NCBI GenBank assembly: GCA_946537835.1
Contig: CAMNGB010000006.1
Span: 1-36,558, forward strand
Reading direction: 5' to 3'
From: an uncultured Erysipelotrichaceae bacterium
GTDB taxonomy: Bacteria; Bacillota_I; Bacilli_A; Erysipelotrichales; Erysipelotrichaceae
Length of the DNA stretch: 36,558 nt
Numbering within the stretch: the first letter of the stretch is position 1; each line of letters begins with the position of its first letter. The position numbers and the translations under genes are program-made. The notes beneath the pieces were generated by a model, which searched no databases, was not told the origin of the DNA, and saw only the letters and a program-made list of their open reading frames with translations. Of the stretch, positions 8,650 to 18,203 are shown piece by piece.

Positions 8650-10527
8650 TCATTTCCGGCTCTCTGTATCCTTCACTGTTTTCTTTTTCTTCGGGCAGGT
8701 CAGCCAGATTGCCGACCATGGTGCAATGCGGATCGTGACGGAGTGTTCAAGCGCTCCCTGTGCATTCCTGTTCTTCCAGGCTTTCACCGGTTCAAAGTTG
8801 CACATGTTGCAGCCGTCATAGATATCCTTCTCACTGTTCAGGATTTCCGTATACTTTCCGCCCTGCGGCACTCCGATATCATAATTCTCATATGACTGTG
8901 CAGTCATATTCAGTATGCAGACCAGATATTCCTTATCATCCTCGCGGTAAAAGGAATAGATGCTCTGCTTTGCGTTATCGGCATCGATCCATCTGAATCC
9001 TTTCTGATAATCATAGTCATATTGATACAGACAGGGATGTGCCTTATAAATTCTATTCAAATCGGTCATATAACGCAAGAAGGAGTCATGCCGGGGATAG
9101 GAAAGCAGGAACCAGTCCAGCTCCTTTTTTTCGTCAAATTCCCGGAAGGAAGCAATCTCATTGCCCATAAAGTTCAGTTTTTTGCCCGGATGTGCATACA
9201 TATATGCATAAAGGTTGCGGGCCTGGGCAAACTTCATGTCATAATCGCCGAACATGCGGTCAACGATCGTTTTCTTGCCGTGTACATTCTCATCATGGCT
9301 GAGCGGCAGCAGAAAGCGCTCGCTGTAAAAGTAAGCCATGGAGAACGTCAGCTTGTGATGATCCCAGATCCTGTAGATCGGATCGGTCGCATAGTATTTC
9401 AGCGTGTCGTTCATCCAGCCCAGATCCCATTTGTAGTCAAAACCGAGGCCGCCGTCGAGTGTCGAAGCGGTGACTTTCGGGAAATCGGAACTGTCTTCAG
9501 CGATCAGCATGACCGAAGGATATTCCTTGTTCAGATAATAATTCATGCGCCGCACAAAGTTCAGAGAGCCTTCGTTGGTGCCGCGGTTGCTGTTGCCGCC
9601 CCAGTAGATCAGATTGGATACGGCATCAATGCGGATGCCGTCAATATGATATACATCACACCAGAAAACTGCCGCTGACATCAGGAAGGAGCGGACCTCT
9701 TCACTCCAGAGATCGAAGTTCATGGTGCCCCACTGCGACTCGGCATCATTTCTGTCCCGGTATTCATACAGGGGCTCTCCGTCAAAATAGCGCAGTCCGA
9801 AAGCATCCTTGACGAAGTGCACCGGCACCATATCCATGATGACACCGATATCATTCCGGTGGCATTCATTGACAAATGCGGCAAATTCCGTCGGATTGCC
9901 GTAGCGGGATGTCACGGAAAAATAGCCGCTGGCCTGATAGCCCCATGAACCGTCAAACGGATATTCATTCAGAGGCATCAGTTCGATATGCGTATATCCG
10001 TGTTCCTTTACATACGGAATCAGATTATCCTTCAGCATCGGATAGGTATACGGATATTCCCCGTTTTTCTTCCAGCCGCCGGCATAGACTTCATAGATAT
10101 TGACCGGTCTGTCAAAGTTTTTGGAACGCTTTTCCAGCCATTTTCTGTCCGACCACCGGATATCATCGAGATCGTAGATCTTGGATGCGGTTTCCGGTCT
10201 GGTCTCGCTGTAGAAAGCATAGGGGTCGGCTTTGTGAAGCATCTCCCCGTTCCGGCTTTCAATCAGATATTTATAGGATTCCCATTCTCTGATACCGGGC
10301 ACAAAAACGCTCCAGATTCCGTTGAAATCCGACCTCTGCATCGGTATCGGCCGGGCATCCCAGTCTGTAAAGGTGCCGATGACACTGACATTTCTGGCAT
10401 GCGGTGCATAGACCGTAAACCTTACACCCTCGCCTCCTTCATAGACAAAATGTGCGCCGAACATACGGTAGGCATTCGTGCACTGTCCCTGATGAAAGCT
10501 CTCTACGATTCTGGACTGATTCATCAT
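8650..10527 (-). CDS. glgB: 1,4-alpha-glucan branching enzyme
   Basis: Makes alpha-1,6 branches in glycogen. A 625-residue GH13 protein with an N-terminal CBM48 (about 20-115), the branching-enzyme block FDGSWGYQASGYFS near 191-204, the catalytic Asp301 in IRIDAVSN, the acid Glu344 in LIAEDSS, and LPLSHDENVHGKK containing the third carboxylate. Some positions differ from the E. coli-type family (VPVHF for VPGHF, IAEDS for IAEES). Two adjacent ATGs are possible starts; GGGAG is 4 nt from the first and 7 nt from the second, so the protein may begin one residue later. It is the first gene of the glgB-glgP-pulA unit and has a promoter in the gap after the pgm terminator. Confidence 0.95.
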   Translation of the reverse strand: MMNQSRIVESFHQGQCTNAYRMFGAHFVYEGGEGVRFTVYAPHARNVSVIGTFTDWDARPIPMQRSDFNGIWSVFVPGIREWESYKYLIESRNGEMLHKADPYAFYSETRPETASKIYDLDDIRWSDRKWLEKRSKNFDRPVNIYEVYAGGWKKNGEYPYTYPMLKDNLIPYVKEHGYTHIELMPLNEYPFDGSWGYQASGYFSVTSRYGNPTEFAAFVNECHRNDIGVIMDMVPVHFVKDAFGLRYFDGEPLYEYRDRNDAESQWGTMNFDLWSEEVRSFLMSAAVFWCDVYHIDGIRIDAVSNLIYWGGNSNRGTNEGSLNFVRRMNYYLNKEYPSVMLIAEDSSDFPKVTASTLDGGLGFDYKWDLGWMNDTLKYYATDPIYRIWDHHKLTFSMAYFYSERFLLPLSHDENVHGKKTIVDRMFGDYDMKFAQARNLYAYMYAHPGKKLNFMGNEIASFREFDEKKELDWFLLSYPRHDSFLRYMTDLNRIYKAHPCLYQYDYDYQKGFRWIDADNAKQSIYSFYREDDKEYLVCILNMTAQSYENYDIGVPQGGKYTEILNSEKDIYDGCNMCNFEPVKAWKNRNAQGALEHSVTIRIAPWSAIWLTCPKKKKTVKDTESRK

Positions 10528-10566
10528 ATTTCTCCCTTATGGTTCATGATCAAAAGTTGCGCTCAC

Positions 10567-10595
10567 ATTCTAACATTGATAGCCCCTCTTTTACA
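10567..10595 (-). promoter_or_regulatory. Putative sigma-A promoter of glgB-glgP-pulA
   Basis: On the minus strand TGTAAA is followed after 17 bp by TAGAAT. The -10 ends about 40 nt before the glgB start, leaving a leader with a GGGAG ribosome site. It lies between the pgm terminator and glgB, where a promoter is needed. The -35 matches 3 of 6 positions, so expression may need help or be modest. Confidence 0.45.
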
Positions 10596-10636
10596 CCCTT
10601 CAGGAAGAAAAAAAATCTGTATTGTCCACTTTACGG

Positions 10637-10670
10637 AAAAAAGGAGTACAGACTTTTGCGTCTGTACTCC
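10637..10670 (-). terminator. Intrinsic terminator after the phosphohexomutase gene
   Basis: A perfect 11-bp stem (GGAGTACAGAC / GTCTGTACTCC) with a 6-nt loop is followed on the minus strand by TTTTTT. It begins 18 nt after the pgm stop. It is one of the strongest terminators in the window. Confidence 0.95.
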
Positions 10671-10687
10671 CTTCGGTCGGTTATTCT

Positions 10688-12370
10688 TCAGGAAAGAATC
10701 GGCTTGCAGGCTTCAGCCAGAGCATCCTTCTCTGCCTGGGCTTCGGCAAGATCCTTGCCGAGTGTGGTGAAGTATGTCTTTACCTTCGGCTCGGTTCCGG
10801 ACGGACGGACGATGACCTTGGCGCCGTCTTCGAGTTCGTAGACAAGCACGTTGGCCTTCGGCAGACCGGTTTCTTCCGGCTTCAGATAGTCGATGACTTT
10901 TGCGACTTTCTTGCCGGCGAATTCTTTCGGCGGGTCGTTTCTGAGGCCTTCCATGATGCCCTTCATCTTGTCCATGCCGGACAGACCCGGGAATTCAAAG
11001 CTGTCGACCTTGTTCAGATAACGGCCGTACTGGGCATAGATTTCTTCCAGTCTCTGCTTGATGGAAGAACCGATGCTTCTGTAGTAGGCAGCCATTTCGC
11101 AGATCAGCATGGATCCGATGATGGCATCCTTGTCACGCACATACGGTCCGGCAAGATAGCCGTAGCTTTCTTCGAAGCCGAAGATGAAGCGGTCAACTTC
11201 ACCGGCAGCTTCCAGACGGGCAATCTGATCGCCGATCCACTTGAAGCCGGTCAGGGTATGTCTCAGTTCAACACCGTAATGCTCGGCAACCTTGTCAGCC
11301 AGCGGTGTAGATACGATGGACATGACAGCAACCGGATTCTTCGGCATTGTACCGTTTTCAATTCTGCCTGCACAGATGTAGTCCAGCAGCAGAACGCCCA
11401 TTTCATTACCGGAAACGAGTTCATAGGAGCCGTCCGGACACTTCATGGCAATACCGACACGGTCAGCATCCGGGTCGGTTGCCAGCATCAGGTCGGCACC
11501 GACTTCCTTGGCCAGATTCAGACCCTTCTCCAGAGCCTCGAAGATTTCCGGGTTCGGATACGGGCAGGTTGTGAAATATCCGTTCGGATATTCCTGCTCG
11601 GGAACGATCGTGATATCGGTGATTCCCATGTCATTCAGAACACGGGTAACCGGAACCAGACCGGTTCCGTTCAGCGGCGAATAGACAAGCTTCAGGCCGG
11701 CTGTACGGCAGAGACCCGGTCTTACCTGACGGGCTTCGATTGCCTCATACAGAGCGTTCTTGCATTCGTCGGACACGAATTTGATCAGGCCCTTTTCAAC
11801 GCCCTCAGCAAAGGACATATATTTGGCACCGGTCAGAACATCAGTCTTCTGAATGGAGTCATAAACAACGGCAGCAGCATCATCTGTCATCTGGCAGCCA
11901 TCCGGTCCGTAGGCCTTGAAGCCGTTGTATTTGGCCGGGTTGTGGGAAGCTGTCAGCATAATGCCGGCGTTGCAGTGATAGTAACGGGTCGCAAAGCTCA
12001 GTGCCGGAACCGGCATCAGCTCATCATAGATCACGACATTGATGCCGTTTGCGGCAAGTACACCCGCTGCATCTCTGGCGAAGTTCCAGCCCTTCAGACG
12101 GCTGTCATAGCTGATGGCAACCAGCTGTTTTCCGCCCTGTGTCTTGACCCAGTCAGCAACACCCTGTGTAGCCTGACGGACTACCCAGATGTTCATCCGG
12201 TTGGTGCCCGCACCGAGTGTTCCGCGCAGACCGGCGGTACCGAACTGCAGGGATACCGCAAATCTTTCCTTGATGGCATCATCGTCATCGGCAATGCCCA
12301 GAAGCTCCGGCTTCAGATCGCAATCGATCAGATCTGCCTCGAGCCAGCGCTTGTATTCATCTAAATACAT
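10688..12370 (-). CDS. pgm: Phospho-sugar mutase (alpha-phosphoglucomutase type)
   Basis: Interconverts glucose-1-phosphate and glucose-6-phosphate, linking glycogen turnover with glycolysis. The 560-residue protein has all four alpha-D-phosphohexomutase motifs: the phosphoserine loop TASHNP (Ser142), the metal loop DPDADR (299-304), the sugar-binding GFEESYG, and the phosphate-binding RPSGTEPK near the C-terminus. The N-terminal layout (QFGTAGLRG) is that of PgcA-like Firmicute enzymes. Specificity for mannose or ribose phosphates cannot be excluded. It is a single-gene unit between terminators, with an AAAGGACG ribosome site. Confidence 0.93.
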   Translation of the reverse strand: MYLDEYKRWLEADLIDCDLKPELLGIADDDDAIKERFAVSLQFGTAGLRGTLGAGTNRMNIWVVRQATQGVADWVKTQGGKQLVAISYDSRLKGWNFARDAAGVLAANGINVVIYDELMPVPALSFATRYYHCNAGIMLTASHNPAKYNGFKAYGPDGCQMTDDAAAVVYDSIQKTDVLTGAKYMSFAEGVEKGLIKFVSDECKNALYEAIEARQVRPGLCRTAGLKLVYSPLNGTGLVPVTRVLNDMGITDITIVPEQEYPNGYFTTCPYPNPEIFEALEKGLNLAKEVGADLMLATDPDADRVGIAMKCPDGSYELVSGNEMGVLLLDYICAGRIENGTMPKNPVAVMSIVSTPLADKVAEHYGVELRHTLTGFKWIGDQIARLEAAGEVDRFIFGFEESYGYLAGPYVRDKDAIIGSMLICEMAAYYRSIGSSIKQRLEEIYAQYGRYLNKVDSFEFPGLSGMDKMKGIMEGLRNDPPKEFAGKKVAKVIDYLKPEETGLPKANVLVYELEDGAKVIVRPSGTEPKVKTYFTTLGKDLAEAQAEKDALAEACKPILS

Positions 12371-12414
12371 ATTCTCGTCCTTTCAGTTATCAATTATGAT
12401 TTTCACTGTTCTTG

Positions 12415-12442
12415 AAAAAAAAGGGACACTTCAGAAGCGTCC
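12415..12442 (-). terminator. Intrinsic terminator after ptsH
   Basis: On the minus strand GGACGCTT and AAGTGTCC pair in an 8-bp stem with one G:T pair and a CTG loop, followed by eight T residues. It isolates ptsH from the mutase gene. Confidence 0.92.
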
Positions 12443-12467
12443 ACCTTTTGGCTGCATTTAGCACTTA

Positions 12468-12734
12468 TTAAGAAATGACTTTCTGCTGACGAAGTACTTC
12501 TTCGATTGTCTGAATCGCGACATCTTCATCCTCACCCTCACAGGATACTGTGATTTCGGACTGTGTCGGGATACCAAGTGACATAACGCCCATGATTGAC
12601 TTCATGTTGACGGAACGTCCCTTGTAAGCAACCTTTACTTCGCTCTTGAACTTGCTGGCTGCATTGACTGCTACAGTTGCAGGACGTGCATGTAATCCAA
12701 CAGGGTCAATAACTGTTACTGAAATCTCTTTCAT
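12468..12734 (-). CDS. ptsH: HPr, phosphocarrier protein of the sugar phosphotransferase system
   Basis: An 88-residue HPr. The PEP-dependent phosphorylation site is His15 in GLHARPA, and the HPr-kinase site is Ser46 in NMKSIMGVMSLG, so this is the Firmicute form that also serves as CcpA corepressor. The start has a GGGAGG site 11 nt upstream, slightly distant. Unlike the usual ptsHI operon, no ptsI follows: the gene ends in a strong terminator and stands alone among glycogen genes, so enzyme I must be elsewhere. A promoter and an overlapping cre-like site lie upstream, suggesting carbon-source control of HPr itself. Confidence 0.97.
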   Translation of the reverse strand: MKEISVTVIDPVGLHARPATVAVNAASKFKSEVKVAYKGRSVNMKSIMGVMSLGIPTQSEITVSCEGEDEDVAIQTIEEVLRQQKVIS

Positions 12735-12771
12735 ATGAAATTATACCTCCCGTTTCTTATTGACTACTTGT

Positions 12772-12800
12772 ATTTTAATACAATAGAGTTCTCACCGCAA
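12772..12800 (-). promoter_or_regulatory. Putative sigma-A promoter of ptsH
   Basis: Minus strand TTGCGG, 17-bp spacer, TAAAAT. The -10 ends 37 nt before the ptsH start. The -35 hexamer lies inside a 12-bp palindrome (ACCGC TT GCGGT, 12794-12805) and overlaps the cre-like site. Confidence 0.55.
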
Positions 12801-12810
12801 GCGGTTACAT
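12796..12810 (-). promoter_or_regulatory. Candidate CcpA operator (cre) over the ptsH -35 region
   Basis: The minus strand reads ATGTAACCGCTTGCG, which matches the relaxed cre consensus WTGNAANCGNWNNCW at 14 of 15 positions (last base G instead of W). It overlaps the ptsH -35 hexamer, so binding of CcpA with Ser46-phosphorylated HPr would be expected to repress. The match is seen; the binding is inferred. Confidence 0.45.
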
Positions 12811-12826
12811 TTGATTTTTGAAAGGC

Positions 12827-12862
12827 ACCGGAAAGCATGCAGGAAAATGCCGTTTTTCCGGT
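12827..12862 (-). terminator. Weak hairpin terminator candidate after malQ
   Basis: An 8-bp perfect stem (ACCGGAAA / TTTCCGGT) with a 20-nt loop begins 4 nt after the malQ stop. The minus strand continues GCCTTTCAAAAATC, so the T-run is poor. It may reduce rather than stop transcription into ptsH. Confidence 0.4.
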
Positions 12863-12865
12863 TCA

Positions 12866-14389
12866 TCAATGCTTCTCTGTCTTCTGAGGATGCCTGGCCT
12901 GCCAGTTGTTGCGGCAGTACAGCAGCATCTTCTCTTTCAGCTTCTCTGCCAGTTCCTTCGTAAAGACTCCCGGCAGGCAGCGCCATGTCCATGCCGGCGT
13001 CTTTCCGGCCGGATCATTGAAGCGTGCTTCGCTTCCCAGTTCCAGCAGGTCCTGCATCTGCACGATTGCCAGATCGCTGGTGCTGCTGTAGGCAGCTCTC
13101 AGCATGCCCCAGGTAAAACCTTCCTCTTTGTTCAGGCCGAGATATGCCTGCGCTCTTTTGATTCTGGCAGCCTGGTTCTTATCCTTTTTCCACCCGGTCA
13201 GGGTATCGTTGTCGTGCGTGCCGGTATAGACTACGGAATTATGATCATACTGGAACGGCATATAGACGGAACCCGGATCATTGGGATCAAAGGCATACTG
13301 CAGGATTTTCATGCCAGGATAGCCGCTCTCCTTGACCATTGCCATGAATTCCGGCGTCAGCTGGCCCAGATCCTCAACAATGATCTGCAGTTTTCCCAGC
13401 TTTTCTTCCATCTTTCGGAACAGTTCCAGTCCCGGACCGCTGCGCCAGTGTCCGTTGGTCGCATCCGGATCGTTTGCCGGTACGGCAAAATAGGAAAGAT
13501 AACCCTGGAAATGGTCAATGCGGATCATATCAAACAGGCGTGACTGATGGGCAGTGCGGTCGATCCACCAGCGGTAGTCTTCCTGCCGCATACGGTCCCA
13601 GTCAAACAGCGGATTGCCCCATTTCTGACCCTTCGGATTGCCGTAATCCGGCGCAAAGCCGGAAACAAATGTCATTTCATTCCGGTCGTTCATCTGGAAC
13701 TGCTCGGGATGTGACCAGACATCGATCGAATCGGCAGCGATGTAGAACGGAAGATCGCCGATGATCTGGACGCCGCTGTCATTGGCATATTTTTTCATCG
13801 CTTTCATCTGCCTGTAGAACAGATACTGGACACGCTCATAGAAGATGACATCCTGACGGCATTCTTCAGCCTTCTGTCTGACCTCTTCACTGTTATGACG
13901 GCGCAGCTCCTGCGGCCACTGTGTCCAGGGCTTTCCCTCAAAGTGATCCTTGATTGCCATAAAGACGGCATAGTCCTTCAGCCAGTGACCTTCCGTCCGC
14001 AGGAATTCCAGATATTCATGCGGATGCTTTACGGGAAGCCGCTCTGCCGCTTTCCGCAGCAGCCTGTTCCGTTCATTATAAAGAATGCCGTAATCGGTAT
14101 GTTCCGGATTCTTTCCCCACTTTACCGATGTCACTTCTTCTTTTGTCAGGAGCCCGTCGCTGATCAGATCATCCAGATCGATCAGATAGGTGCTTCCGGC
14201 ATAGGAAGACAGTGCCTGATAAGGAGAATTGCCGTATCCGGTCGGCCCTATCGGCAGGATCTGCCAGTATGTCTGACCGGCATCCGCCAGAAAATCTATA
14301 AATTCGCGTGCTGCCTTTCCCATCGTACCGATGCCGTACGGTGAAGGCAGCGATGTGACCGGCAGTAAAATGCCTGCACTTCTGATCAT
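12866..14389 (-). CDS. malQ: 4-alpha-glucanotransferase (amylomaltase)
   Basis: A 507-residue GH77 enzyme that transfers alpha-1,4-glucan segments between malto-oligosaccharides and releases glucose. The start is the ATG with GAGAGG 8 nt upstream, giving MIRSAGILLPV; a TTG six codons earlier is less likely because it lies before the ribosome site. The catalytic nucleophile is Asp292 (RIDHFQGY), the acid/base Glu339 (VEDLG), and the third carboxylate Asp393 (GTHDN). GNSPYQALSSYAG in the N-terminal region is typical. It would process short dextrins left by GlgP and PulA. It has its own promoter after the rlmH terminator. Confidence 0.96.
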   Translation of the reverse strand: MIRSAGILLPVTSLPSPYGIGTMGKAAREFIDFLADAGQTYWQILPIGPTGYGNSPYQALSSYAGSTYLIDLDDLISDGLLTKEEVTSVKWGKNPEHTDYGILYNERNRLLRKAAERLPVKHPHEYLEFLRTEGHWLKDYAVFMAIKDHFEGKPWTQWPQELRRHNSEEVRQKAEECRQDVIFYERVQYLFYRQMKAMKKYANDSGVQIIGDLPFYIAADSIDVWSHPEQFQMNDRNEMTFVSGFAPDYGNPKGQKWGNPLFDWDRMRQEDYRWWIDRTAHQSRLFDMIRIDHFQGYLSYFAVPANDPDATNGHWRSGPGLELFRKMEEKLGKLQIIVEDLGQLTPEFMAMVKESGYPGMKILQYAFDPNDPGSVYMPFQYDHNSVVYTGTHDNDTLTGWKKDKNQAARIKRAQAYLGLNKEEGFTWGMLRAAYSSTSDLAIVQMQDLLELGSEARFNDPAGKTPAWTWRCLPGVFTKELAEKLKEKMLLYCRNNWQARHPQKTEKH

Positions 14390-14418
14390 AATGATTACCT
14401 CTCTCAAAAACTTCCTAC

Positions 14419-14429: not shown

Positions 14430-14460
14430 AAAAAATGAATCCCGAAAGCAGGATTCATTT
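14430..14460 (-). terminator. Intrinsic terminator of the yybS-rlmH operon
   Basis: A perfect 10-bp stem (AAATGAATCC / GGATTCATTT) with an 8-nt loop overlaps the rlmH stop codon and runs into six T residues on the minus strand. It ends the eight-gene operon. Confidence 0.92.
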
Positions 14461-14931
14461 ATGATACGGTTCATGATTCAGAATACGGAAACAGCGGTAG
14501 ATCTGTTCCAGGACAATGATCCGGCAGAGCTGGTGCGGAAATGTATTGTCCGACAGTTTCCAGCGCATGTCGGCACGCCTGATCAGTTCTTCCGAAACAC
14601 CGAGGGATCCGCCGATCACAAAAACGATGCGGCTCTGGGAATGCAGGTACAGATCACTCAGTTTTTCACTCAGTTCAACCGATCCGCAGGGCTTTCCGGC
14701 CAGATCCAGCAGGATGACATATTCGCCGTCCCGGATCTGCTTCAGCAGCTTTTCGCCTTCCTTCTTCCTGACAATTTCATTTTCGGCAGCCGAATTGCTT
14801 TCCGGAGCCTTCTCATCTGCCACTTCAATTACTTCAATCTTTTCATAGGGACGGATCCTTTTCAGATATTCATCAATGCCGTCCTTCATCCATTTTTCGC
14901 GGACTTTTCCGCAGGCCAGGATCCGGATCAT
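14455..14931 (-). CDS. rlmH: 23S rRNA pseudouridine-1915 N3-methyltransferase
   Basis: A 158-residue SPOUT methyltransferase that methylates pseudouridine 1915 in helix 69 of 23S rRNA on assembled ribosomes. The SAM-binding knot region reads VFVIGGSLGVSEE, and the C-terminus LSDNTFPHQLCRIIVLEQIYRC is typical. Length is exactly the family norm. The start ATG overlaps the stop of the HtrA-like gene by 4 nt. In Bacillus the gene also lies near the wal/htrA region, and here it is the last gene of the operon. Confidence 0.97.
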   Translation of the reverse strand: MIRILACGKVREKWMKDGIDEYLKRIRPYEKIEVIEVADEKAPESNSAAENEIVRKKEGEKLLKQIRDGEYVILLDLAGKPCGSVELSEKLSDLYLHSQSRIVFVIGGSLGVSEELIRRADMRWKLSDNTFPHQLCRIIVLEQIYRCFRILNHEPYHK

Positions 14932-15953
14932 TGCAGCTCCGTGCTGAGGACAGTTTCCTCACCGTCCCTTAAGATCTGCAGTTCAGCCATTTCACCGGAA
15001 TTCACGTCGTAGAGTATGGTGCGCAGGGAACTGACATCAGCCACTGTCTGTCCGTTGATGCTCAGCAGCACATCGCCCGGCTTCAGTTCACTGCTGTCGC
15101 CGCCGGCTGTGATCAGTACGCCGCTGACAGCATCCAGCTGCAGACCGCGCGTACTCTTTTCATAGGAACGCAGATCGGCAACACTGCGGACGGTGATGCC
15201 CAGGGAACCGCGGCTGACCTTTCCTTCTTCCTTGAGTTCTTCCGCTGCCAGTCTGATTTCATTGATGCCGACCGCAAAGCTCAGTCTGTCATTCCCGTTC
15301 AGGCTCCGCGGCAGCAGCATCCCGACCACGGCACCGCCCTGATCGAGGAGCGGACCGCCGGCACTTTCCGGCGAAATCACGGCATCGGTTTCAATGACTC
15401 CGGCAAGCCATGAAGATGACGCATTCAGTCTCATCATGCCTGGTTCGGAAACAATTCCGAAGCTGACCGCACTGCTTCCGGTTTCTGCACTTCTGCCGCT
15501 GAGAGCAAGCACATACTCACCCTGCTGCAGCAGGTCGCTGTCACCGATTCGGCTGGTTCTGACTTCGAACCCCGGCTGCAGTCTCAGCAGCATGATTCCG
15601 GTCGCTTCATCACGTCCGGCAATGGCAGCGCTCATGCCGGCACTGCTGTCAAAATACACGGTCACTTCACCGCTGTCGGAATACAGATCGCTGGTTGTGA
15701 TCAGATACAGATTTTCATCCTCACGGCTGTAGACAAAGCCGCTGGCTGTGCGGCTGCCGCTGCTGACAGTCACAACCGCAGCCCGGGTATTGTCAATGAT
15801 ATCGGTCAGATCGGTCGTATAGTCGCTGACCGTTGTCTGTGTGATCTGCGGAACGGCAGGAGCACTCGGACTGTTCACCATCTCAAGCCGGATCGTCAGC
15901 CACAGATTCCATGCCAGCAAAACAGCACACAGTGCCATAATCCATTTCTTCAT
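14928..15953 (-). CDS. HtrA-like trypsin-fold/PDZ membrane protein lacking the catalytic triad (pseudoprotease)
   Basis: A 341-residue protein with an N-terminal membrane anchor (about 4-22), a linker, a chymotrypsin-fold domain (about 50-230) and a C-terminal PDZ domain (about 245-338, RGSLGITV...LKPGDVLLSINGQ). Aligned by eye to HtrA/DegP, the family TNNHV becomes TTSDL (His replaced by Asp89), the TDLAV-type motif becomes TGIMLL (Asp replaced by Gly119) and GNSGGPL becomes ESAGGPL (Ser replaced by Ala198). All three triad residues are therefore missing, while glycines, core and PDZ are intact, so it probably acts as a binding protein or sensor. It starts with a strong AAAGGAGA site inside the 3' end of walJ (71-bp overlap) and occupies the place of htrC in the Bacillus wal locus. 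Confidence 0.88.
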   Translation of the reverse strand: MKKWIMALCAVLLAWNLWLTIRLEMVNSPSAPAVPQITQTTVSDYTTDLTDIIDNTRAAVVTVSSGSRTASGFVYSREDENLYLITTSDLYSDSGEVTVYFDSSAGMSAAIAGRDEATGIMLLRLQPGFEVRTSRIGDSDLLQQGEYVLALSGRSAETGSSAVSFGIVSEPGMMRLNASSSWLAGVIETDAVISPESAGGPLLDQGGAVVGMLLPRSLNGNDRLSFAVGINEIRLAAEELKEEGKVSRGSLGITVRSVADLRSYEKSTRGLQLDAVSGVLITAGGDSSELKPGDVLLSINGQTVADVSSLRTILYDVNSGEMAELQILRDGEETVLSTELQ

Positions 15954-16701
15954 TGCCGTCTCCTTTCCTGATCATTTCATATTGCCCGGCGGCACAGATG
16001 ACAAGATCATCCGAGATCCTGTCCCTCTCCTGCATCAGCCTGTTCACGGCTGTCTGCAGAGCCTTCTCTCGGGTATTGGCTTCCTGGGATATATGTGCCA
16101 GGATGATCATTTTTGTATTTTTACTGATACAGCGGGCCAGAATCTCGGCACAGTCTTCATTGCAGAGATGCCCCTGGTCACCGTAGATACGGGCTTTCAG
16201 ATACTGCGGCCGCCGTGTCTGCATCAGCATCCCTACATCATGATTGCTTTCCATGACATAGTAGTCAGCCGACCGGATCAGCGGCAGATAGTTCTCGTTG
16301 ACATACCCGGTATCGGTGATATAGACAAGTTTTTCCGTTCCGTTTTCAAGGATGTACCCGCAGGTATTGCGGGCATCATGCGACAGGGCAAGCGGCGTAA
16401 TCCGCAGACTGCCCACCGAAAACGGCATGCGGTTGGTGACATTGGCCGTACAGATATCCTCGATATCCACCGGCGAATAGATATGATACGGCGCAAAGTG
16501 CCGGATCTGGGCAATATGATCGCTGTGATCGTGGGTAATCAGAACCGCATCGATATCTTCCCTTTTCAGCTGCAGTCCGGCAAAGGAAGCCTTCAGATGC
16601 TTCAGCGTCGAGCCGCAGTCGATGACAATCACGGTATCTTCGTTTCTGACTACGAAGCAGTTTCCTTTGGAACCGCTGGCAAGCAGTGCAAATTTCATCA
16701 T
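15883..16701 (-). CDS. walJ: MBL-fold metallohydrolase of the WalJ/YycJ family
   Basis: A 272-residue metallo-beta-lactamase-fold protein starting with MMKFALLASGSKGNC, the hallmark of the YycJ/WalJ family. The metal motif HDHSDH is at 57-62 and further ligands appear in SHDARNT, TDTGY and GHLCNED. Members are cytoplasmic and have been proposed to process nucleic acids; the exact role is unsettled. The start overlaps the stop of the M23 gene by 4 nt. The last 24 codons overlap the start of the HtrA-like gene in another frame; family homology appears to end near GQYEMIRKGDG, so this tail may be a run-on caused by loss of an earlier stop. Confidence 0.93.
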   Translation of the reverse strand: MMKFALLASGSKGNCFVVRNEDTVIVIDCGSTLKHLKASFAGLQLKREDIDAVLITHDHSDHIAQIRHFAPYHIYSPVDIEDICTANVTNRMPFSVGSLRITPLALSHDARNTCGYILENGTEKLVYITDTGYVNENYLPLIRSADYYVMESNHDVGMLMQTRRPQYLKARIYGDQGHLCNEDCAEILARCISKNTKMIILAHISQEANTREKALQTAVNRLMQERDRISDDLVICAAGQYEMIRKGDGNEEMDYGTVCCFAGMESVADDPA

Positions 16702-18203
16702 TGGTAAGGCACCGTATCACAGGCCAGGTAGCCGTTGCAGGCATCGACATTCTTATCATCAACTTCCACCATGAAGTGGACGTGCGGCCCGGTTGCCAGG
16801 CCGGTCATGCCGATATGGCCGATCATCTGTCCTTTCGTTACAACCGTTCCTACCTGGAGCTCGCTCTGTTCACGCATATGTCCGTAGTAGGTCTTATAGC
16901 CGTTGTTGTGATTGATCACGATATAGTTGCCGCTGATGCCGTCATAGGAATTTTTCTCGACGACACCTGTATCTGAGGCATAGACATCGCCCCAGCGGTC
17001 GTACTGGTTGACAATATCCGTTCCCTCATGTCCGAAATAGCAGCCGTAGCCGCAGGAAATGGCAGGGGTTTCAACCGGGAAACGGTAGACGCCCGTGCCG
17101 ACATCAGGCAGCTGCTGGGTACCAAGGGCAATGACTTCACTCTGCGGTTCCTGGATCATGACACTCGACTTCTCGGTACCGCTGACAAGAACACCGTTGA
17201 TCCATCTTTCGGCATAGAGCACATTGCGGGCCCCGTTGATGCCGTTCTGCCTGACTTCTCTTTCACCCAGCAGAAGATTGGAATCTTCCACATAGGCCGT
17301 CTCAAAATAGACCGGCATCTGACGGAAGCTGTCCTTTTCGACAATGACATCGATCGGCGGCGTGAAATAGGTTACACACAGTTCATCGCCTTCCTTCAGG
17401 AGCTGATCGACACTGGTGATCTTTTCCCGGTTGATGTTCATGACCTGGGTGGCAGACAGACCGTAATTCTTGGAGCCGACACCGGCAACGGTGTCATATT
17501 CCTGAACGGTGTAGTATTCCAGCTGCGGACTGTCACCGTACTTGAGATATTCGAGGACTTCATATTCCGTCTTCATGATTTCCTCGATCGGCGCATATTC
17601 CCTGCTGATGGTGATCGTCTGGGGAATGGACACGCTGTTGTCACGGCTGCCGTAGGTCGTCAGTGCCGGCTGGCTGCCGCTGTTGTTGATCAGACTGGAC
17701 TGATCGACAAAATAGGAAATATAGGTATTCATTGCCTTTTCGTAGATTTCCTGATTTCTGGCAAAGATACGGGCATAGATCTCTCCGTCTTCGGCAAAGC
17801 TGATCGCTGTTGCCTCCAGGGAAAACAGATGATTCTCATCAATGTAATTCAGGATCTCATCATCCGCATCCTCATAGACCAGATAGCTTTCCTCATCGGT
17901 CAGATATACATCGTTTCCGAGTGCCAGACGGGAATCGGGGAAATCATCCTCGTAGCGTTCGGCATATACATCCTTCAGCATCTTTTCCAGACGGCCGGTA
18001 TCGCGGATGATGCCGATCAGCCGGTCGTTCTGATACAGCATGTGACAGATCTGAGGGCGGTCGGACAATACCGAAGCCCGCTGATGAAACATGCCGGCTT
18101 CGCTGTCCTGCGGCTGTGTCTTTTCCTCAAAGAATCCGGTGCTGAAAAGCACGATGAAAACAGATGCCGCAAAGCAGATCGCTACAGTCAGAATCCTTTT
18201 CAT
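16698..18203 (-). CDS. Membrane-anchored M23 peptidoglycan endopeptidase with LysM-like and G5 domains
   Basis: A 501-residue cell-wall hydrolase. The N-terminus is a signal anchor (about 4-22). A long family-specific region runs to about 225, followed by a LysM-like segment (YYTVQEYDTVAGVGSKNYGL, 230-249 and on to about 280), a G5 domain (about 284-360) and a C-terminal LytM/M23 domain (about 370-495). Zinc ligands are visible: His392 and Asp396 in GHEGTD and His476 in GPHVHF, so it should be active, cutting peptide bridges outside the membrane. AAGGAGGAGAACG precedes the ATG. Between dnaB and walJ it sits where Bacillus has purA-walRKHI, so a cell-wall role connected to this locus is plausible. 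Confidence 0.9.
   Translation of the reverse strand: MKRILTVAICFAASVFIVLFSTGFFEEKTQPQDSEAGMFHQRASVLSDRPQICHMLYQNDRLIGIIRDTGRLEKMLKDVYAERYEDDFPDSRLALGNDVYLTDEESYLVYEDADDEILNYIDENHLFSLEATAISFAEDGEIYARIFARNQEIYEKAMNTYISYFVDQSSLINNSGSQPALTTYGSRDNSVSIPQTITISREYAPIEEIMKTEYEVLEYLKYGDSPQLEYYTVQEYDTVAGVGSKNYGLSATQVMNINREKITSVDQLLKEGDELCVTYFTPPIDVIVEKDSFRQMPVYFETAYVEDSNLLLGEREVRQNGINGARNVLYAERWINGVLVSGTEKSSVMIQEPQSEVIALGTQQLPDVGTGVYRFPVETPAISCGYGCYFGHEGTDIVNQYDRWGDVYASDTGVVEKNSYDGISGNYIVINHNNGYKTYYGHMREQSELQVGTVVTKGQMIGHIGMTGLATGPHVHFMVEVDDKNVDACNGYLACDTVPYQ

Follow-up and report, generated by a model that had tools for sequence, protein, structure and literature searches.

The htr gene lying between walJ and rlmH probably encodes a membrane-anchored descendant of HtrA proteases that no longer cuts, has been kept by selection and works as a PDZ adaptor, holdase or scaffold. 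This gene lies on the minus strand of the window (the whole 36,558-nucleotide stretch of DNA analysed here, from an uncultured Erysipelotrichaceae bacterium), where the relevant features are:

16698..18203 (-), M23 peptidase with a G5 domain, first gene of the conserved block
15883..16701 (-), walJ, metallo-beta-lactamase fold, upstream of htr in the operon, with a 4-base overlap with the M23 gene
14928..15953 (-), htr, HtrA-type pseudoprotease of 341 aa (Trypsin_2 and PDZ; D89/G119/A198 on the triad columns; no His)
15882..15953 (-), htr N-terminal membrane anchor, aa 1-24 (MKKWI...WNLWLT), hydrophobic, dual-coding with the walJ 3' end
15318..15746 (-), htr trypsin-like domain with replaced triad, aa 70-212 (Pfam Trypsin_2, E 5e-16, above cut-off)
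14934..15203 (-), htr PDZ domain, aa 251-340 (Pfam PDZ_2, above cut-off)
14455..14931 (-), rlmH, 23S rRNA methyltransferase, downstream of htr, with an ATGA overlap with htr

The operon order is M23/G5-walJ-htr-rlmH, all on the minus strand, with successive overlaps of 4, 71 and 4 bases. The htr reading frame runs uninterrupted from its ATG start (N-terminal sequence MKKWIMALCAVLLAWNLWLTI), and a Shine-Dalgarno-like AAAGGAG ends 6 bases before that ATG, within the 3' end of walJ, in agreement with the strong ribosome site that a sequence-only reading of this DNA had described. The htr anchor codons (15883-15953) encode the walJ tail (EEMDYG...GMES) in another frame. Since the anchor is dual-coding with walJ, its conservation is not counted as evidence here. 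Overlaps between walJ and htr span 50-119 bases in the catalytically dead clade described below and 65 bases in four separately dead orthologs, against only about 4 bases in most active orthologs. Downstream of rlmH, positions 8650-14407 hold 4-alpha-glucanotransferase-, HPr-, phosphoglucomutase- and glycogen branching enzyme-like genes, and HPr and phosphoglucomutase also come after rlmH in the genomes G078 and G072.

Like an active HtrA/DegP, the htr protein has a trypsin-like domain followed by a PDZ domain; the His-Asp-Ser triad of such proteases is missing. The PDZ domain starts at the LGI of the SLGI carboxylate-loop motif and contains a YEKS motif. The NCBIfam Do-family model TIGR02037 matched the protein with E 5e-39 and 134.6 bits (below its cut-off of 416.2), and phmmer aligned residues ~69-341 to solved structures of the DegP/MucD/DegQ type with E values down to 7e-29. 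The source is probably a gut bacterium, as is the genus: the closest named relative, at 64% identity, comes from a goat-ileum MAG labelled Solobacterium sp. RGIG2362. A scan of genome contigs turned up a single relative. An AlphaFold2 model built from two sequences only (the htr protein and L032) reached a pLDDT of 38, too low for use, and the fold is taken from sequence alone.

Three alignments (phmmer against solved structures, MAFFT with the active paralog of the same genome and with orthologs, and hhalign profile-profile comparison) place Asp89, Gly119 and Ala198 on the His, Asp and Ser columns of the triad, the same replacements that the sequence-only reading had assigned by eye. In the hhalign alignment between htr and the active HtrA family of the genus (probability about 100%), TTSDLYSD pairs with TNNHVLED, ATGIMLL with KSDIGVI, and SPESAGGPLL with NSGNSGGGLF. 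The protein of the window contains no His at all and a single Cys, in the anchor; the absence of any His excludes a His-based triad elsewhere in the protein, which would have overturned the earlier claim. The retention of reading frame, anchor and PDZ domain was likewise confirmed by the intact 341-aa frame and its Trypsin_2 and PDZ_2 matches.

We surveyed 70 genomes of the genus, many of them fragmented and probably MAGs, and recovered 65 full-length htr copies at the locus, from 65 genomes, flanked by walJ and/or rlmH. The catalytic His was absent from every one of these copies, which excludes chance as the explanation for triad loss; the Ser was absent from 61 (4 keep it) and the Asp from 37 (28 keep it), and none carried a frameshift or internal stop. 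A conserved inactive clade at this locus was found across the genus, and the predicted position downstream of walJ and upstream of rlmH held both in the window and in these relatives. The expectation that the Asp/Gly/Ala replacements themselves would be conserved failed: letters vary freely at the triad positions, with S, D, Q, E, R, K, N, A, T or a gap in place of His and I, Y, A, T, E, V, N, S, L, M or D at the Ser position. As judged from these alignments, it is inactivity that is conserved in the genus, not the replacement letters.

The remaining genomes included two (G009 and G028) with htr only as contig-edge fragments, the former keeping a Ser and lacking the His region, and one (G012) in which rlmH was not found. 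In the reduced genome G078 (L113), only an open, anchor-like remnant of ~80 aa separates walJ from the nearby rlmH, and the reduced genome G072 (L114) showed no htr between its closely spaced walJ and rlmH. The remnant in the one and the lack of the gene at the locus in the other indicate that the role of htr is dispensable in reduced genomes.

Beyond the genus, 40 further loci, drawn from ~25 additional genera in the family and mostly sharing the walJ/rlmH context, kept the triad in 36 cases and lost it in four orthologs. Two of these carry Thr for Ser (L054 and L090) and are likely, though not certainly, inactive judging by their sequences; in the other two the triad reads Phe/Gly/Asn (L070) and Asn/Asp/Gly (L081). 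No HtrA gene was found between walJ and rlmH in the two order-level genomes checked, where walJ adjoins rlmH, and the HtrA copies read from this second family have intact triads and are located elsewhere.

We built a maximum-likelihood tree without the triad columns, including only family and order sequences. The sampled sequences of the genus formed one clade (support 100/99, present in 100% of bootstrap trees), triad loss required five state changes, and a single clade of all dead sequences was rejected (AU p 6e-6); a larger, quickly computed tree that held 53 sequences of the genus agreed. These trees place an old loss at the base of the genus and four further losses elsewhere in the family, and by the same reading the active wal-locus orthologs of other genera represent the ancestral state. 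Local decay, which would have undermined the earlier claim, is ruled out, the dead copies of the genus being one clade with open frames throughout. The retention of the Asp in under half of this clade points to an earlier loss of His and Ser.

A search for a second, active htrA in the genome found one: an HtrA with the motifs NNHV, SDI and GNSGG is encoded elsewhere (G000:C29, L002). Close relatives of this paralog occur in 63 of the 70 genus genomes; its triad was read in its own genome and in twelve other genus copies, and eight copies from the family were read for the His and Ser motifs. The proposal that htr stands in place of an active HtrA was thus not upheld. Co-occurrence with an active paralog was also considered as an explanation for dead wal-locus copies and rejected, because the difference between dead lineages (5/5) and active ones (about 22/35) is not significant.

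Selection on htr was evident within the dead clade, where dN/dS in 16 pairs ranged from 0.025 to 0.31 for the whole gene, 0.01 to 0.31 for the protease domain and 0.03 to 0.44 for the PDZ domain, ratios that are rough for those pairs with dS near or above 1. Whole-gene values were comparable to those of walJ and above those of rlmH. Relative to active orthologs, the dead copies lost 0.79 bits of constraint per column in the loops of the catalytic shell and 0.17 elsewhere in the protease domain, with a gain of 0.09 in the PDZ domain; the difference between the shell and the rest of the protease domain was significant by permutation (p<1e-4), the loop set having been chosen by motif once the alignment had been seen. 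Fold core and PDZ domain keep their constraint; positions of the catalytic shell and of the activation relay have lost it. Mean pairwise identity of the protease and PDZ domains was 0.35 and 0.37 among dead copies and 0.48 and 0.34 among active ones. Together, dN/dS, survey, constraint and monophyly sustain the earlier view of a selected, intact and catalytically dead protein, and htr shows one hallmark of a pseudoprotease, the loss of catalytic residues in a monophyletic, constrained clade.

Four residues gained constraint and are near-invariant in the dead clade (D102 in 61/65 copies, R154 in 60/65, F129 and Y264 in 65/65; codons at about 15162-15650). For two of them, D102 and R154, active orthologs usually carry a different residue. 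Position 154, in the LD loop, is Pro in 86% of active orthologs. Three further positions (162, 173 and 188) match by motif Thr176, Arg187 and Gln200 of the DegP activation cluster, whose residues link neighbouring subunits in DegS/DegP (PMC11642142). At position 162 the Ser/Thr of active orthologs gives way to no consensus in the dead clade, at 173 Arg is replaced by Gln or other residues, and at 188 Gln is mostly replaced by Glu. Given these changes and the Pro-to-Arg exchange, the relay from PDZ domain to active site appears to have been dismantled together with the triad. Gly252 and Gly289 of the PDZ carboxylate loop are less conserved than in active orthologs.

We propose that the membrane-anchored htr protein would act outside the membrane as a non-cleaving binder, whose PDZ domain and/or dead cleft may hold exported or cell-wall proteins, with degradation performed by the separate active HtrA. 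Clients might come from the operon itself, the M23/G5 peptidase being one candidate. The C-termini of M23 peptidases were checked as possible PDZ ligands and showed no hydrophobic ending in common; in many family members the M23 protein ends in a conserved two-Cys motif (type CxGFLxC). A precedent for a Gram-positive HtrA that acts by binding alone comes from Bacillus anthracis, in which HtrA with a mutated catalytic Ser still induces NprA, a PDZ-dependent function (PMC6387919). As the sequence-only reading suggested, htr might serve as a sensor or scaffold in envelope stress. More tentatively, and with considerable doubt, a PDZ-based non-proteolytic job could be the core function of the family's wal-locus HtrA. 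Given a second HtrA, cutting would have been abandoned on five or more occasions and binding kept, and in one genus the protein would have turned into an adaptor marked by residues of its own (D102, R154, F129 and Y264).

The main rival to a free-standing adaptor ties htr to the active paralog, as a regulatory subunit or a partner that joins or contacts active trimers and tunes them. We regard this as unlikely, even though the paralog family is so widespread in the genus and all four genomes with a separate loss carry the paralog, each showing the NNHV and GNSGG motifs. The changed positions 154, 162, 173 and 188, which match by motif activation-cluster residues acting between subunits (PMC11642142), would also suit such contacts, and the pairing of MamO with MamE and the dead Deg7 domain (trimerisation) offer precedents. 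Against it, the htr protein and the paralog are only about 27% identical, and lineages with an active wal-locus copy frequently encode the paralog as well (about 22 of 35), leaving the co-occurrence short of significance.

Less probable still is a slowly disappearing relic, whose reading frame persists solely through the overlap with walJ and translational coupling to rlmH. The overlaps (50-119 bases with walJ, 4 with rlmH), the loss of htr in the reduced genomes G072 and G078 and its faster evolution relative to rlmH would fit slow loss; the low dN/dS of the protease domain (0.01-0.31), which overlaps no other annotated gene, the lack of frameshifts in 65 genomes and the newly gained near-invariant residues do not. 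A relic is already disfavoured, as it does not fit the selection data. That the protein is still a hydrolase using different residues is scarcely credible. The Gly pair after the lost Ser (G199 in 100% of copies, G200 in 86%) and D190 (97%) are still conserved, but the window protein has neither a His nor a Cys beyond the anchor, and the replacements drift at all three positions across the clade with no new catalytic set conserved there.

Magnetotactic bacteria and plants are already known to have HtrA pseudoproteases, and an early prokaryote survey included a count of inactive serine protease homologs. MamO and the inactive MamE copies of magnetotactic bacteria resemble htr in being HtrA pseudoproteases that arose by repeated, independent triad loss beside an active paralog, and MamO is required, without catalysis, for MamE activity (PMC4794232). 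In MamO, Thr stands in for Ser, surface histidines bind metal and a TauE transporter domain is present, whereas the htr protein has no His, no TauE domain in a Pfam scan and a retained PDZ domain; the NCBIfam MamO model scored it at 36.8 of 800 bits, far below its cut-off. Plant Deg6, Deg16 and the second domain of Deg7 are likewise HtrA domains with triad residues missing, and the dead Deg7 domain is reported to serve trimerisation (PMC3473262), but these proteins are eukaryotic, have other domain layouts and belong to no wal-type operon.

Bacterial HtrA pseudoproteases are rarely studied, MamO being the one found in the literature searched. That search, which covered few subscription papers, returned no description of a Gram-positive HtrA pseudoprotease, including at the wal/rlmH locus, and a wal-locus Gram-positive lineage with repeated losses appears to be unreported in the papers covered. 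The lineage is large, old and selected; other genera hold active orthologs, independent losses lie nearby, and the whole offers a natural experiment on the cutting versus binding roles of HtrA, including that of Gram-positives. Genes annotated as Do-like serine proteases in such genomes need not encode proteases.

The closest counterpart by position is the wal-locus HtrA of Bacilli (B. subtilis YyxA/YycK/HtrC), whose gene lies directly downstream of walJ (PMC4801191). The active orthologs of the family occupy the same position, by which they are likened to it, and htr itself sits directly between walJ and rlmH on the same strand. It differs from the Bacilli genes in the loss of the triad across the genus and in its surroundings, with an M23/G5 gene ahead and dnaB-like and rplI-like genes further upstream.
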